64,000 bases of DNA from Chloroherpeton thalassium ATCC 35110. Lineage in GTDB: Bacteria > Bacteroidota > Chlorobiia > Chlorobiales > Chloroherpetonaceae. A model generated the notes under the pieces. It was not told the origin of the DNA and made no database searches. It saw nothing but the letters and a program-made list of their open reading frames with translations. Made by a program: the position numbers and the translations under genes. The DNA is taken from positions 744,001-808,000 of the forward strand of contig NC_011026.1 of the NCBI RefSeq assembly GCF_000020525.1, given 5' to 3'. Numbering within the stretch: the stretch's first letter is position 1; each line of letters opens with the position of its first letter. Below, piece after piece: positions 11,752 through 61,608 of the stretch.

Positions 11752-11785
11752 AAAATAAAAAACCGGCAGTTTTGAAACTGCCGGC
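11752..11785 (-). terminator. rho-independent terminator of the sulfur cluster (after fccB)
   Basis: CCGGCAGTTT TG AAACTGCCGG is a near-perfect stem followed on the minus strand by TTTTTTATTTTT. It ends transcription of fccB. Confidence 0.88.
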
Positions 11786-11814
11786 TGACAGAAGGGAGAA
11801 GAATTTGATATGCC

Positions 11815-13107
11815 TCAGCCCCAAATATCTTTGGAAAGAGAAGCATACCAACCTTCGGCATAGGCGGCTTCTGCACTCAAGAAATTCTCATCGGCATCGT
11901 TCGGCGTGAGCCCACCTGCGCCTTTAATGCTAACAATTTTATTTTCCTTATCGTCGTACTTATACACAGCAGCAACAGAAATCCCGTATTTGTCGCCAAT
12001 CAAGCTATAACAGGTATTTGCAAGTGATGGCGGTTTTGGGGTGCGCCCGTGCAAAATATCCACGACGGCCAGCGCGGTAACTTTTGCCTGACTGCTTGCG
12101 GCAAAACCGGATTTTGGCATTGCGCCTGCCAGTGCGGCATCACCAACCACATGAATATTGGGATGGAGTGTGGACTCAAACGTTTGCTGATTAATCGGGC
12201 ACCAACCGGATTCATCCGTAAGGCCTGCATCGCGAGCAATTTTTCCAGCCCACTGCGGCGGAATGAAGTTGATGACATCAGCTTTTTCAGCGCCAAATTC
12301 CGTTTCGAGCTTCATAGTTGCGGCATCAACACGAGTGACCGCACCGCCAGCCGAACCCGGACGCCATTCAACCATATCGCCATAAAGCTTTTGCCATCCT
12401 TTTTGGAAAAGCATTTGTTTGGAGAATTTCTCCTTTTCATCCAAAATGAGCACTTTGGCTTTTGGATTGTTCTTTTTCAAGTAGTTTGCAAAAAGGCTTG
12501 CGCGCTCGTAAGGTCCGGGCGGGCAGCGGAACGGATTTTGCGGCGCATGGATAATCACTGTGCCACCTTGCTTCATGGAGCGAAGTTGATCGCGCAAAAT
12601 CTCTGTTTGCTTTCCAGCTTGGAAGGCATGTGGAATTTTTTCGCTGGTTGCTTCATCATACCCTTCAACGGCGTCCCATTTAAAATCGATTCCTGGCGAA
12701 ACGATGGCTCGATCATACTGAATGGTTTTTCCGCCTTGGGTTTTAGCTGTTTTATTGGCTGCATCAATTTCAACCACCAAGTCGTGAATGACATTGATAT
12801 GATGTTCGTTTTTTATGGCACTGTATCCATGCCCAATGTCTTTCATTTCACGAAGGCCGCCCATCACCCAGTTGCTGAACGGACAGGTATAAAAGATTTC
12901 CTTTGGCTCAACCAAAGTGACATCAATAGACGGGTCAAACTTCTTGACATACTTTGCCGCAGCTGCGCCACCAAAACCGCCGCCAATAACGAGGACACGA
13001 TACGTATTGGCGCGTAAGATAGCCGGTGCGCCAAGTGCGCCAATAGCTGAACCCGCCAAACTTGCAACAAATAATTTCCCGAATTCTCTACGAGTCATTT
13101 TGCTCAT
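11815..13107 (-). CDS. fccB: flavocytochrome c sulfide dehydrogenase, flavoprotein subunit
   Basis: A 430-residue periplasmic flavoprotein with a twin-arginine signal ([15 protein letters not shown], residues 5-19). The FAD-binding glycine motif VIGGGFGG is at 40-47. C75 in [10 protein letters not shown] matches the cysteine that holds FAD covalently in flavocytochrome c, and C195 ([11 protein letters not shown]) and C366 (ANTCYSL) match the redox-active pair that attacks sulfide. It oxidises sulfide to sulfur species and passes electrons to the cytochrome subunit encoded 21 nt upstream. It is homologous to SoxF, and its place behind soxYZ fits that name too. It is the last gene of the cluster. 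Confidence 0.94.
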
Positions 13108-13128
13108 TTTCTGAGACCTCCCTATGGT

Positions 13129-13464
13129 TTATTTAAGATTTCCAAAATATTCAGCGATTAACTTGATTTCCTCTTCTGTGTAGCCTTTCGCAATGCGATC
13201 CATCACTGTTGGCCGACCTTCACCTTTTTGGAAACCAAGGAGGCGCTCTTGAATGTAAGCAGTTTCTTTTCCATAAAGCGACGGCATGATGCCTTCACTT
13301 TTTCCGTCTGGGCCATGGCAAGACGTGCAAGACAACGCCAAAATCATCCCTTTCGGATATGGCTCTTCGTTCTCTGCATGTTTTTCCGTTTTGCTACCAC
13401 AGCCAGCCATCGTGCCGGTTGTGAGTGCAACCGCCAGTATCATAAATCCGATTTTTTTTATCAT
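13129..13464 (-). CDS. fccA: monohaem cytochrome c, flavocytochrome c haem subunit
   Basis: A 111-residue c-type cytochrome with one haem site CTSCH at residues 46-50. The N-terminus (MIKKIGFMILAVALTTGTMAGC) ends in a lipobox-like MAGC, so the mature protein may be lipid-anchored at C22. A single haem matches the FccA of green sulfur bacteria rather than the dihaem subunit of purple bacteria. It is followed directly by fccB, and together they would form the sulfide-oxidising FccAB (SoxEF-like) complex. The name rests on context plus size; on sequence alone it is a small class I-like cytochrome. Confidence 0.87.
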   Translation of the reverse strand: MIKKIGFMILAVALTTGTMAGCGSKTEKHAENEEPYPKGMILALSCTSCHGPDGKSEGIMPSLYGKETAYIQERLLGFQKGEGRPTVMDRIAKGYTEEEIKLIAEYFGNLK

Positions 13465-13523
13465 GGATTCAATCCCCCAAAATTGATTTAAATTATGTTT
13501 TTTGCGAATTGAGCTGCGAGCAC

Positions 13524-13841
13524 TTACGCGCTAACAACTTCTGTATCTGCTGTGAAAACCTCATTTTTATTATCCTTAAACAAGACATGCAGCTTATCGC
13601 CTTTTTTGCCCAAAAATTGGAATGAAATCAGCGGGTTTTTGGCAATCGATGGGCCTAATTGCATTTGCATGAGCCGTTGCCCGTTGAGCTTTGCCTCCGC
13701 TTCGGTCAGGTGATGCGCAGGAACAAAATTGCCATCTTCGTCTTTTCTAAACCCAGATTCATTTGGATGATTGATCACCGCTTTAACCGTGACAATCCCG
13801 TTTGCTTCTTTCGCAACCATTCGAATTTTATTTGCCGCCAT
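13524..13841 (-). CDS. soxZ: SoxZ, sulfur-carrier partner subunit
   Basis: The start at 13841 (MAANKIRMVAKEANGIVTVK) is chosen over 13871 because an AAAGGAGAAG ribosome site lies at the right distance before it and SoxZ proteins begin near here. The 105-residue product is a single immunoglobulin-like domain with the SoxZ pattern NHPNESGFRKDEDGNFVPAHH. SoxZ binds SoxY and together they present the sulfur-carrying cysteine to partner enzymes in the periplasm. SoxZ has no signal of its own and is expected to be co-exported with Tat-dependent SoxY, whose gene ends 24 nt upstream. Confidence 0.92.
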   Translation of the reverse strand: MAANKIRMVAKEANGIVTVKAVINHPNESGFRKDEDGNFVPAHHLTEAEAKLNGQRLMQMQLGPSIAKNPLISFQFLGKKGDKLHVLFKDNKNEVFTADTEVVSA

Positions 13842-13864
13842 GTATTCTTCTCCTTTTTGCTGAT

Positions 13865-14305
13865 TTAGCACGCTTGTGCGTTGACTTTGACCTTTTTTGA
13901 AGTGATGTAATATTTCCCGTTCGCTTTCACAACCACAGAAACATTTGAGGTTTCACGCATTTTAATTCTCGTTGAAAGAAACGGAATCATTTTTGGCGTG
14001 AACTCGGTGAAAAGTGTTAGCGGCGCTTTGTTTTTTTCAACAAAAAACGCCATCGATTGCACGCCTTTTAAATCCGTTTTGGCTGAAATCGGAACGGTAG
14101 CGCTGTTGGTTGCCACATCAGGCACGTCTATGGCAATTTTATCAGTGGTGATAAAATTTTGATTGCCATAAACCGCTTTCAACGCTTCTTGAAAGTCGTC
14201 GGCGCTAAACGCTTTTTTATTCCAAAGCGCAAACAACTCTCCTGGAACAAAACTGGCCAAAGCAGCCGAAGCAAGTGCTTTTTGCAAAAATTCCCTTCTG
14301 TTCAT
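13865..14305 (-). CDS. soxY: SoxY-like sulfur carrier with atypical C-terminus
   Basis: A 146-residue protein with a Tat signal (MNRREFLQKALASAALASFVPG) and the SoxY domain (DVPDVATNSATVPISAKTDL, TPKMIPFLSTRIKMRETSNV). Normal SoxY ends in a flexible GGCGG arm whose cysteine carries the sulfur intermediate. Here the protein ends K-V-K-V-N-A-Q-A-C, so the only candidate carrier is a fully C-terminal C146 with no glycines. No alternative frame at the 3' end encodes GGCGG. It is followed by soxZ. No soxX, soxA, soxB or soxC is in the window. It probably still carries sulfur, but perhaps with different partners such as FccAB. Confidence 0.88.
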   Translation of the reverse strand: MNRREFLQKALASAALASFVPGELFALWNKKAFSADDFQEALKAVYGNQNFITTDKIAIDVPDVATNSATVPISAKTDLKGVQSMAFFVEKNKAPLTLFTEFTPKMIPFLSTRIKMRETSNVSVVVKANGKYYITSKKVKVNAQAC

Positions 14306-14420
14306 GTCTGTCAGATTTTTCGTGTTAAGAGATTTTTTCGTTTATAAAAAACGCCTCAGCGCTGAGGCTTTAAAGGCCGGTGCCGCCAAGCCCACCTTCA
14401 AAGCTTCCGCGCTTTTTTTG

Positions 14421-14876
14421 CTAAATAAAAATGATGGAGCCGCCGTCGGCAATTTCAAAGAATTCCGGCGCAGTGATAATGTCTTCGACACCTTCATGCA
14501 AATTTTCCTTCTTCAATTCAAACATTTCCGCCGCCAACGCGCACGCATACATTTTTGCGCCAGCGTCGCACAGCGTATCCAAAAATTCGGGAACATCGGG
14601 CACATCCAATTTTTCAAGCGATTTTTTCATTTGCGATGTCGCAAACACATCCATTCCTGGAATCGACCCAACCAAAGTCGGCACGCCCATCGATGGGTTT
14701 CCAACGGTTGCAAGTCTCAAACCGGCCATCTTTTTCTTGTTGATGATGTCCATTCCCCAAAATGTAAAAAACAAATTTACCTCTATTCCGACCATACGAG
14801 CCGCGTTGCCCATAATCAGCCCGGGGTAAGCCATATCCAGCGACCCTTTCGAGCAGATGAATGAAATCTTTTCCAT
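14421..14876 (-). CDS. DsrE-family (DsrE2-like) sulfur-relay protein
   Basis: A 151-residue protein of the DsrE/F fold, closest in appearance to the DsrE2 group: it starts MEKISFICSKGSLDMAYPGL, contains the VNLFFTFWGMDII segment, and has the conserved cysteine C112 in KMYACALAAEMF. Further cysteines are C8 and C103. DsrE2-type proteins transfer sulfane sulfur between rhodanese, TusA and DsrC/TusE proteins in the cytoplasm. It lies 33 nt downstream of the tusE/dsrC-like gene and upstream of soxY. No membrane segment is obvious, although some DsrE2 proteins are membrane-bound. Confidence 0.87.
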   Translation of the reverse strand: MEKISFICSKGSLDMAYPGLIMGNAARMVGIEVNLFFTFWGMDIINKKKMAGLRLATVGNPSMGVPTLVGSIPGMDVFATSQMKKSLEKLDVPDVPEFLDTLCDAGAKMYACALAAEMFELKKENLHEGVEDIITAPEFFEIADGGSIIFI

Positions 14877-14909
14877 AGTTTCCCTTTCGTTCAGTGTTTA
14901 GAGGTTGGG

Positions 14910-15221
14910 TTATAAACAACCTTTTGGCTTCGGCAATCCGCCGATTTTGGCCGGAAATTTTGCCGGACCGCCGGGAAACAGGGCATAAATTTCTTTGGTG
15001 TTGGCAATGTTGTTCTTCGTGATTTTCCGAACGGTCGGGGTTTGACCCGTCGCTTTATAATCATCGCGCATGAAACGAATGACTTTCCAATGGGCATCGG
15101 TCAGTTCAATGCCATCTTGACGCGCAATCTCGGCGGCAATTTCTTCCGTCCATTCATTCGGATTCACTAAGAAACCGTCTTTATCAATCTCAACCGCTTT
15201 TCCTGCTATGGTTGCCGGCAT
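14910..15221 (-). CDS. DsrC/TusE-family sulfur-relay protein lacking the second cysteine
   Basis: A 103-residue protein ending GLPKPKGCL, the family C-terminus with the penultimate reactive cysteine (C102, CysA). True DsrC has another cysteine 11 residues earlier (CysB); here that position is A91 (KFPAKIGG). That places it in the TusE/DsrC-2 type that can accept and pass a persulfide but cannot form the intramolecular disulfide or the trisulfide cycle used with DsrAB and DsrMKJOP. This agrees with the absence of dsrAB nearby. An AAGGAGG ribosome site precedes the ATG, with a CAA-rich leader before it. The next gene is dsrE-like. Confidence 0.93.
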   Translation of the reverse strand: MPATIAGKAVEIDKDGFLVNPNEWTEEIAAEIARQDGIELTDAHWKVIRFMRDDYKATGQTPTVRKITKNNIANTKEIYALFPGGPAKFPAKIGGLPKPKGCL

Positions 15222-15223
15222 AT

Positions 15224-15305
15224 ATCCTCCTTGTGTTGTTGTGTTTTCAGGTTGTTGTTTTGTTGCTAATGTGCTTGAATTGTTGTTGTTGTAATGTGCT
15301 TTTAA
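15224..15305 (-). promoter_or_regulatory. CAA-rich leader of the tusE/dsrC-like gene
   Basis: On the minus strand the ~80 nt before the gene are rich in CAACAA/ACAACA tracts with two AGCACATTA words (the pair spaced ~29 nt), ending in an AAGGAGG ribosome site. Such unstructured CA-rich leaders often favour efficient translation. No promoter boxes are certain. Confidence 0.4.
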
Positions 15306-15377
15306 AATCCTGTGCGTTTTATCGCATTTCGCCGCCGCTCAACCCGGGGCACGGCATTTTCCAACATGGCGTTATGT

Positions 15378-15453
15378 TTTTGTCATGCTGAACGCATTGA
15401 AGCATCCATCCTGCTAGTGTCTGGATTCTTCGCTAAGAAGCTCAGAATGACAT
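15378..15453. repeat. dispersed palindromic repeat, single copy
   Basis: A ~75-bp element runs from GTCATGCTGAACGC through GAAGCATCC and GGATTCTTCGCTAAGAAG to CTCAGAATGACA. Its ends are imperfect inverted repeats. The same core words occur at 51.6 kb (three copies) and 61 kb (eight copies, opposite orientation). Here it lies inside the sulfur cluster, between the DUF1641 gene and the tusE/dsrC-like gene. Confidence 0.85.
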
Positions 15454-15493
15454 GATCTTTTTTATCATCGGCAGCGAAGACGAAGGTCATCCA

Positions 15494-16006
15494 TCAATTC
15501 CCTTCTTTATTATTCCCCGCATTGGTGAAAGCTTGAATGCCTTCAAACACGGCGCTTAAATTTGACGCCATCGCATCAAGATCAGACTTTTTCGTATTGG
15601 AAAACGCGTTGTCCAACGCTTGTCCGGCGGCGGCAAAAAATCCGAAGTAGCCTTTTTGCTGCATGCCTTCAAGCTGCTCGACCACCGAGAGCGTCACATC
15701 GTTTAGCATCGGCTGGGCGTCGGTGAGAAACTCGTTTGTGGCCATTGCACGGTCGAGCATTTCCTCCAGCGTGCGCGTGTTCATGGCCACTTTTTTTACA
15801 AGGCGAAAGAAATCTTCCATCGTGAAGGCGGAAGAAACCTCTTGAAGCTCATCGATGGCGACCATCGTCATTTCGTTGAGGACAGGCATCAAGTCGTCTT
15901 TGAGGTCTTCGATCATCTGAACGCGCATTTCCATGTCTTCGGAGCGTTCGAGCAGCACGTCCAATTTCCGATTGATTTCGGCAAGTTGCATTTCCTGTGT
16001 CATCAT
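15494..16006 (-). CDS. DUF1641-type protein, partner of the sulfide:quinone reductase gene
   Basis: I start the gene at 16006 (MMTQEMQLAEINRKLDVLL; the second ATG at 16003 is equally possible) because a GGAGG lies just upstream, between the sqr stop and this ATG; an upstream extension to 16141 would overlap sqr. The 170-residue helical protein has repeated acidic/hydrophobic heptads (QMIEDLKDDLMPVLNEMTMV, FLTDAQPMLNDVTLSVVEQL) typical of DUF1641 proteins, which are commonly encoded beside SQR-like flavoproteins or formate dehydrogenases. The function is unknown; a membrane-peripheral partner of SQR is a reasonable guess. Confidence 0.8.
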   Translation of the reverse strand: MMTQEMQLAEINRKLDVLLERSEDMEMRVQMIEDLKDDLMPVLNEMTMVAIDELQEVSSAFTMEDFFRLVKKVAMNTRTLEEMLDRAMATNEFLTDAQPMLNDVTLSVVEQLEGMQQKGYFGFFAAAGQALDNAFSNTKKSDLDAMASNLSAVFEGIQAFTNAGNNKEGN

Positions 16007-16023
16007 GTTCCTCCTTCTTCGGC

Positions 16024-17268
16024 TTAAGCGACGTGGTGCAATGCGTTCTTGCCAGCCATCATCATTTTTGCCGGAATCGGCAAATCGACGCCGCGCAGGA
16101 GCATGTTGAAGTAAATCCACCGATACATCATTTTCCCCCAATGGTTTGCTTTGGATTCTTTCAGGAGCGAAAACGGGCCGATGCCGGGAAGCGGAAATTC
16201 GCCGGGAAGCGGCTCAACCTCGTAGTTGAAGTCGATAAGCAATCCTTTGCCAAAACCGGATTCGATGTAGCAATTGGCGTGGCCGTCGAAGCTCGGCTCG
16301 GGGTCAAGCCCTTCGATGACGCGCAAGAAATTTTTCGTCAGCGTTTCCGACGCGAAGTGTGCGACGGAGGCCGCCTTTGAAGCCGGTATATCGGAAGCGT
16401 CGCCGACGACGAAGATATTGTCATGTTCTTTTGAACGAAGCGTTTTGCCGTCGGTCGGCACAAAGTTCAACTCGTCGCCCAAACCGGATTCGCCGATAAA
16501 CTCCGCGCCCATGTTTGTGGGAATGGTGATGAGCAGATCGTAATCGATATTTTGCTCGTCAAACGAACTGATTTTATTGCCTTCGGAATCCACCTCGCCG
16601 AGATTGAACTCGGTGGTGACATGAATATTTTTTTGCTCGAGAAAATGTCCCAACTCCGCAGCGGCGACCTTTTTCGTAAAGGCGCTGCTAAGCGGGGTAA
16701 CATATTCGATATGCACATCTTCGCGAATGCCTTTGTCGGAAAAATACCAATCGGCGAGGAAGGAAAATTCCAGCGGGGCAACGGGACATTTAATCGGCAT
16801 CTCGGCAATGTTGATAACCATTTTGCCGCCCTTCCAGCCGCGCAGAAATTTGGCCAATTTCGTCGCACCTTCAAGCGTGTAAAAATCAAAGATATTTTGA
16901 TGCCAGCCTTCGCCCGTCATGCCTTCGTTTTCTTCGGGATGAATCGTGCAACCGGAAGCAATAATCAAAAAGTCATAGTCAATTTTGCTTCCGCTTGCAA
17001 GATGCACCTTGTTTTGCTCGGCATCAACGGATTGAATTTCGTCGTGAATAAAGCGAATATGTCGACTGAGATAATTTTTGCGCGGACGAACAACGTCCTT
17101 CGGCAGATACATGCCGAACGGAATGAATAGATAGCCCGGCTGATAATGATGGTCTAAAGTCTTATCAATGACCGTAATTTGCCAATCTTTTTCCTCAAGA
17201 TTGGTGGCCAATTTATTTGCCATCATCGTGCCGCCGGCACCTGAACCCAGAATCACAAGTTTTTTCAT
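16024..17268 (-). CDS. sqr: sulfide:quinone oxidoreductase
   Basis: A 414-residue flavoprotein of the SQR family, oxidising sulfide to polysulfide/sulfur at the membrane and reducing quinone. The FAD-binding motif VILGSGAGGTMMANKL is at residues 5-20. Three cysteines expected of SQR are present: C107 (IASGCTIHPE), C161 (MPIKCPVAPLEF) and C333 (HANCYIESGFG). A second nucleotide-binding region ends with the NIFVVGDASDIPASK segment at about 284-298. There is no signal peptide; the C-terminal amphipathic helices (RWIYFNMLLRG) would anchor it in the membrane. It heads the sulfur cluster and is followed 17 nt later by the DUF1641 gene. Confidence 0.95.
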   Translation of the reverse strand: MKKLVILGSGAGGTMMANKLATNLEEKDWQITVIDKTLDHHYQPGYLFIPFGMYLPKDVVRPRKNYLSRHIRFIHDEIQSVDAEQNKVHLASGSKIDYDFLIIASGCTIHPEENEGMTGEGWHQNIFDFYTLEGATKLAKFLRGWKGGKMVINIAEMPIKCPVAPLEFSFLADWYFSDKGIREDVHIEYVTPLSSAFTKKVAAAELGHFLEQKNIHVTTEFNLGEVDSEGNKISSFDEQNIDYDLLITIPTNMGAEFIGESGLGDELNFVPTDGKTLRSKEHDNIFVVGDASDIPASKAASVAHFASETLTKNFLRVIEGLDPEPSFDGHANCYIESGFGKGLLIDFNYEVEPLPGEFPLPGIGPFSLLKESKANHWGKMMYRWIYFNMLLRGVDLPIPAKMMMAGKNALHHVA

Positions 17269-60957: not shown

Positions 60958-61608
60958 CGCGTGGATGCTTCACTGACTCGTTCCCGAGTCGTTCAGCATG
61001 ACATCGTTTTGTCATTCTGAGCTTCTTGGCCAAGAATCCACAAGTTATCCGAATGGATGCTTCACTGACTCGTTCCCGAGTCGTTCAGCATGACATCGTT
61101 TTGTCATTCTAAGCTTCTTGGCGAAGAATCCAAAAATTATCCGAGTGGATGCTTCACTGACTCGTTCCAAGTCGTTCAGCATGACATCGTTTTGTCATTC
61201 TGAGCTTCTTGGCCAAGAATCCACAAGTTATCCGAATGGATGCTTCACTGACTCGTTCCCGAGTCGTTCAGCATGACATCGTTTTGTCATTCTGAGCTTC
61301 TTGGCCAAGAATCCAAAAATTATCCGAGTGGATGCTTCACTGACTCGTTCCAAGTCGTTCAGCATGACATCGTTTTGTCATTCTGAGCTTCTTGGCCAAG
61401 AATCCACAAGTTATCCGAATGGATGCTCGCTGCTCAGCATGACATCGTTTTGTCATTCTGAGCTTCTTGGCCAAGAATCCAAAAATTATCCGAGTGGATG
61501 CTCGCTGCTCAGCATGACATCGTTTTGTCATTCTGAGCTTCTTGGCCAAGAATCCAAAAATTATCCGAGTGGATGCTCGCGGGCGTTCAGCATGACAAGA
61601 AAAAAATT
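60958..61608. repeat. array of eight tandem palindromic repeat units
   Basis: The word GCATGACATCG or its last-copy variant starts at 60997, 61088, 61179, 61271, 61362, 61437, 61512 and 61590, giving periods of 91, 91, 92, 91, 75, 75 and 78 bp. Units contain GGATGCTTCACTGACTCG, TTCAGCATGACA, TTTTGTCATTCTGAGCTTC and TTGGCCAAGAATCC; the later units lack a ~16-bp CACTGACTCGTTCC(CG)AG-type piece. This is the same family as the 15.4- and 51.6-kb repeats in opposite orientation. It fills the space between hppA and pth. Open frames inside it are artefacts. Confidence 0.95.

Follow-up and report, generated by a model that had tools for sequence, protein, structure and literature searches.

The canonical C-terminus of the carrier protein SoxY is GGCGG, and genome surveys read SoxYZ as evidence of thiosulfate oxidation. 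The described systems closest to the locus reported here are the Sox thiosulfate system (soxJXYZAKBW of Chlorobiaceae), the flavocytochrome c sulfide dehydrogenases (1fcd, 3vrd and 5n1t), and the linkage of soxYZ with fccAB, which is itself already known. The passages of PMC10158934 on this cluster (citing Gregersen 2011) describe it as conserved in green sulfur bacteria without soxXAB and its SoxYZ as only about 30% like that of the Sox system; an arm ending at cysteine is not mentioned in those passages. The idea that functional SoxY classes are set by arm sequence is shared with the swinging-arm variants S1–S4 of a 2024 survey, from which sequences without 'GGC' were dropped as being of poor quality (PMC11237559), so that a class ending at cysteine would not appear in it.

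We analysed a window of 64,000 nucleotides from Chloroherpeton thalassium ATCC 35110 (contig NC_011026.1, positions 744,001 to 808,000), where positions 11815–17268 hold eight minus-strand genes for sulfur metabolism. Four of them match the published soxYZ-fccAB cluster in identity, order and lack of soxXAB. Unlike that cluster, the window copy adjoins an unrelated sqr-tusE-dsrE2 module, and its FccA has a lipobox-like signal. With a probability of roughly 55%, FccAB and a SoxYZ whose SoxY ends at its carrier cysteine form a dedicated periplasmic sulfide-oxidising pair, the sqr module being separate and its sulfur probably passing to an sHdr system. Within the literature searched, the Cys-ended arm, its close correspondence to the presence of FccAB and the absence of SoxAB, and the two-module make-up appear to be new.

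SoxY tails and their partner enzymes

The soxY gene (13865..14305, minus strand, as are all features below) encodes a protein with a Tat-type signal and a SoxY domain (PF13501, 99.8 bits), which places it in the SoxY family. The protein ends VNAQAC-stop, the carrier cysteine being its last residue, and has no GGCGG. A frameshift hiding the canonical motif was ruled out, since the bases after TGC-TAA hold no in-frame Gly-Gly and 24 other loci end alike. This last cysteine lines up with the one at the carrier position in the solved SoxY structures 2nnc and 4uwq. The predicted model matches both structures, with TM-scores by target length of 0.85–0.87 for 2nnc, and is less certain at its very end (pLDDT 66 over residues 141–146).

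Among 394 genomes of the phylum, a SoxY profile search found the protein only in Chlorobiales, and the scores fell into two well-separated groups (198–252 and 54–113 bits) with which the tails read so far agree. We compared the arms of the SoxY proteins of this order together with those of named genomes. Cysteine is the last residue in 25 of 25 SoxY from soxYZ-fccAB loci, the window included, within a tail [QE][AG]C that has Q or E at −3 in every sequence and A at −2 in 24. In the same tree, 43 proteins end in GGCGG and 15 have other GGC tails. The Cys-ended proteins form one clade (support 100/99), so their tail is a conserved motif and not a product of decay.

The gene order soxY-soxZ-fccA-fccB is kept in 24 named chlorobial loci as well as in the window, with fccA orthologues adjoining fccB. 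The fccB gene was seen in 23 of the 24 (24 of 25 with the window), the remaining locus ending at a contig edge, and every complete locus has soxZ, fccA and fccB. No SoxB was detected within the 24 named loci. The SoxYZ-FccAB pairing proposed by an earlier sequence-only reading of the window thus holds across the chlorobial loci. A further conserved partner was sought beside soxYZ-fccAB, and none is common to Chloroherpeton and Chlorobiaceae; the flanking conservation seen inside Chlorobiaceae is general synteny.

Arm type also follows the distribution of the thiosulfate enzymes. SoxA and SoxB are present in all 12 genomes with GGCGG and in none of the 13 with only Cys-ended SoxY (Fisher p 2e-7, a value that overstates independence because the genomes are related). 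One genome, G042, possesses both types, with the GGCGG protein encoded in a locus with soxB and the Cys-ended protein with fccAB, and is a within-genome control for the match between arm type and partner. The Cys-ended arm is therefore found only where SoxA/SoxB are missing or served by a separate carrier, so that its role probably lies in the oxidation of sulfide and not of thiosulfate.

The Chloroherpeton genome itself is a single contig of 3,293,456 bp, 99.86% complete, on which all genome-wide absence searches were based. Neither SoxA nor SoxX has a match anywhere in it, and the best match to SoxB is a nucleotidase-like protein at 67.7 bits, far below the cut-off of 550, so that the SoxXA and SoxB of a Sox thiosulfate-oxidising system are lacking. 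The sequence-only reading had named one finding that would refute it, soxXAB at another site in the genome; this was searched for and not found. SoxC likewise has no match genome-wide (SoxD was not searched), nor has DsrA, whose profile was positive in Chlorobiaceae controls and had 36 relatives above cut-off (DsrB was not searched on its own). The absence of soxX, soxA, soxB, soxC and dsrA claimed for the window is thereby extended to the whole genome, and that of Dsr in C. thalassium is already in the literature (PMC8232776, PMC8066431). Compared with the Sox thiosulfate system, the locus shares the SoxY and SoxZ folds and a nearby FccB homologue (SoxJ/SoxF), but the genome lacks SoxXA, SoxB and SoxC and its SoxY lacks GGCGG.

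The other three genes of the module are soxZ (13524..13841; PF08770; TIGR04490, 105.8 bits against a cut-off of 76), fccA (13129..13464; PF00034) and fccB (11815..13107; PF21706/PF09242). FccB aligns at full length with 1fcd (E 4e-134) and 5n1t (E 2.5e-151), and in these alignments keeps the flavin-attachment cysteine (YTCPFSN) and the redox-active cysteine pair, roles that are established for 1fcd. Like SoxY, it starts with a Tat-like signal (TRREFGKLF). FccA is a monohaem cytochrome c with one CxxCH (SCTSCHG) and a lipobox-like signal (here TMAGC), as FccA has in Chloroherpetonaceae; signals and haem site were read from the sequence. The pair thus shares with flavocytochrome c sulfide dehydrogenase a flavoprotein with all catalytic cysteines and a cytochrome c subunit, and differs from it in the monohaem FccA and in standing next to a SoxYZ carrier.

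In one Chlorobiaceae genome, G014 (L021/L063, C15:116376), a SoxY of the canonical clade ends in GGCG and neither SoxA nor SoxB is present; this is perhaps a carrier drifting after the loss of its partners. Outside the order, gammaproteobacterial SoxY ending in GGCA, GGCV or GGCG were seen (L142, L145, L153, L155, L156, L159, L160, L163 and L164), including those of the sponge symbionts 'Porisulfidus'; SoxZ was not detected beside the Porisulfidus-type proteins by the queries used. These tails represent another possible arm class.

Proposed role of the Cys-ended carrier

From this gene content we infer the transfer steps and the direction of sulfur flow as follows. FccAB would oxidise sulfide at its flavin/disulfide site, with electrons leaving through the cytochrome FccA, and SoxYZ would receive the sulfane sulfur so formed on FccB, binding it as a persulfide (or chain). 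The loaded SoxYZ would carry it off to polysulfide or extracellular sulfur or to an importer, and would not be a substrate carrier for SoxXA/SoxB. Since in canonical SoxYZ the arm with GGCGG has to enter SoxB (the SoxB-SoxYZ complex is 4uwq), the shorter arm may fit a shallower or different site. A wider proposal, which we advance tentatively and at somewhat less than even odds, is that the Cys-ended SoxYZ represents a separate functional class, dedicated to carrying persulfide for flavocytochrome c and working without any thiosulfate-oxidising enzyme. A periplasmic pair of enzyme and carrier for sulfide would then have evolved once in green sulfur bacteria, loss of the two glycines after the cysteine switching the carrier from SoxB/SoxXA to FccAB.

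The relationship may also run the other way, with FccAB serving SoxYZ by oxidising or reactivating a carrier that receives its load from another, unrecognised enzyme. A role of this kind has been proposed for Paracoccus SoxF/SoxEF. FccB is indeed homologous to SoxJ/SoxF, the canonical sox clusters of Chlorobiaceae include a SoxJ-type FccB, and the invariant soxYZ-fccAB linkage fits either direction. We nevertheless consider this scenario unlikely in a genome without a SoxXA/SoxB loading enzyme and with no further gene conserved beside the four.

It is less probable still that unrecognised enzymes use the Cys-ended SoxY in thiosulfate chemistry, or that the protein is left over from a Sox system since lost. 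The window SoxY does pass the TIGR04488 thiosulfate-SoxY model (127.6 bits, cut-off 125), so that automated pipelines will label it as a carrier for thiosulfate, and the shortened canonical tail of G014 is what drift after loss of SoxA/SoxB would give. Against this scenario, a deep clade has the [QE][AG]C tail throughout, the G014 tail differs from it and stays in the canonical clade, and all complete loci retain soxZ, fccA and fccB.

If, as we favour, the Cys-ended SoxYZ is the sulfide-side partner of FccAB, a carrier class that tracks FccAB and not SoxA/SoxB would mean that many green sulfur bacteria annotated with 'SoxYZ' should be left out of counts of thiosulfate oxidisers. The C-terminal residue offers a one-line rule separating the two SoxY types. 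The pairing of a sulfide-oxidising enzyme with a carrier dedicated to it is a testable answer to the question of what SoxYZ does in such genomes.

The sqr module and a distant sHdr-type cluster

The remaining four genes are a type III sqr, encoding a sulfide:quinone reductase (16024..17268; NF049943, 661 bits against a cut-off of 525), a DUF1641-type gene (15494..16006), a tusE/dsrC-like gene (14910..15221; PF04358; TIGR03342 over cut-off) and a dsrE2-like sulfurtransferase gene (14421..14876; PF13686; NF047629 at 107 bits, below its cut-off of 210). As the sequence-only reading had it, all eight genes of 11815–17268 were found on the minus strand at their coordinates, with good Pfam and NCBIfam matches for seven, the exception being the DUF1641-type gene.

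Judged by its comparative genomics, the region consists of two adjacent modules split at the dsrE2/soxY gap. The sqr, tusE and dsrE2 genes are linked in 30 of the 30 type III sqr loci inspected, the window included, in genomes across the Bacteroidota phylum, and a sister-family genome with soxYZ-fccAB has no sqr module at the threshold used. The 115-bp gap holds a terminator-like hairpin, GCCTCAGCGCTGAGGC-GTTTTTT (14353..14368, terminator scan), and folds more stably than all but one of 200 shuffled sequences (z −2.9). Because the modules occur independently and this hairpin lies between them, a single eight-gene pathway is not supported. The sequence-only reading had proposed such a pathway, with TusE/DsrE handling the sulfur inside the cell; it stands in part, since comparison among Chlorobi bears out the soxYZ-fccAB half, while the sqr-tusE-dsrE2 half does not belong to the same conserved unit. 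It had missed the SoxY without a GGCGG arm, the published status of soxYZ-fccAB, and the sHdr-type cluster described below, a candidate destination for sulfur in the cytoplasm. The least probable of the alternatives is that the eight genes, which are adjacent on one strand with several short gaps, form one transcription unit and one pathway in which periplasmic FccAB/SoxYZ feeds TusE/DsrE2 in the cell. Against it, genomes across the phylum have sqr-tusE-dsrE2 but no soxYZ-fccAB, the sister family and Chlorobiaceae show the converse, a hairpin lies in the gap, and the cluster has no importer gene.

The window sqr shares 68% identity with a gene found outside Chlorobiales and 45–48% with the sqr of Chlorobiaceae. 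Together with the absence of the module from the sister-family genome, this makes horizontal gain the simplest explanation of its origin, and a probable one. The TusE-like protein has only the penultimate cysteine (PKPKGCL), the CysB position not being cysteine, and is for this reason not a two-cysteine DsrC; nearly all of its module homologues also have a single cysteine in the aligned stretch. The DUF1641-type protein has 170 residues, compared with 230–233 for the homologues that occupy this position in related loci, and has no match to PF07849, which the homologues carry in the C-terminal part missing here. Where relatives encode that part, the window spacer after the stop codon holds a copy of a dispersed repeat (15424..15449, from repeat search and locus comparison). 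The gene is short by about 60 residues and perhaps non-functional. A missing gene between DUF1641 and tusE was ruled out, as the gap of the relatives is the rest of their DUF1641 gene. The NCBIfam name 'selenoprotein subtype', together with a TGA flagged in L084, raised the question of an in-frame selenocysteine codon in the quinone reductase; it was rejected, the TGA being an ordinary stop and none occurring in the window gene.

About 600 kb from the window genes, at C1:~148449-164537 (locus L190, 1450-17538), lies an sHdr-type cluster that contains DsrE, two LbpA-like proteins, a thioredoxin-like protein, HdrC, HdrB, HdrA, a 251-residue protein, a Fer4+CCG fusion, EtfB/EtfA-like proteins, a membrane CCG protein, an LplA-like protein and radical SAM proteins, among the last LipS1 over cut-off. 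The HdrC-, HdrB- and HdrA-like proteins, the 251-residue protein (without a Pfam match), the fusion and EtfB/EtfA follow in this order, EtfAB being named by sequence start and position only. This gene order fits the published definition of type II sHdr, shdrC1B1AHB3 with etfAB in one syntenic cluster (PMC11582611), and makes the cluster a candidate for such a system. As in the type II sHdr-LbpA system, putative hdrC1-B1-A genes, a fused C2B2-type protein and putative etfBA occur together with LbpA-like and lipoylation genes; the Chloroherpeton cluster lies outside the window, in a genome without detected TusA. The 2018 LbpA paper (PMC6067878) mentions Chloroherpeton, so the sHdr-type cluster may already be known. 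A review calls the sulfur oxidation route of the Dsr-less Chloroherpeton unclear and favours a RuBisCO-like protein (PMC8232776). In the route favoured here, the type III quinone reductase, short DUF1641 protein, single-cysteine TusE and DsrE2 would form and relay a persulfide on the cytoplasmic side, and the sulfur would probably end in the putative type II sHdr-LbpA system, replacing the missing Dsr. The sHdr system is thus a candidate for slow oxidation of sulfur to sulfite in a green sulfur bacterium without Dsr.

Several points weigh against a dedicated FccAB-SoxYZ pair beside a separate sqr module. TusA is the usual partner of DsrE-type transferases; it (PF01206) was not found in the genome, being present in 11 of 14 control genomes, and the relay from DsrE2/TusE to sHdr therefore has an unfilled step. 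Overall, the terminator scan performed no better than chance, giving about as many matches in shuffles, so that the gap hairpin counts as supporting evidence only, and the juxtaposed modules may share regulation. On the carrier side, the window SoxY is accepted by TIGR04488, and, according to the passages on the cluster in PMC10158934, fccAB is retained in some green sulfur bacteria that lack this soxYZ; the carrier is therefore not indispensable to FccAB.

Minor observations

For a genome that encodes DsrE2 and TusE, the lack of TusA is unusual. The soxZ gene starts at an ATG preceded by AAGGAG, whereas the open reading frame caller lists it from GTG 13871. The terminator scan placed another terminator-like hairpin 3' of fccB (11761..11786). 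The dispersed repeat, with the consensus TCATTCTGAGCnnCTTAGCGAAGAATC, occurs in 43 copies in the genome, seven of which are spaced 75–92 bp apart at window positions 61013–61554, near the right end.

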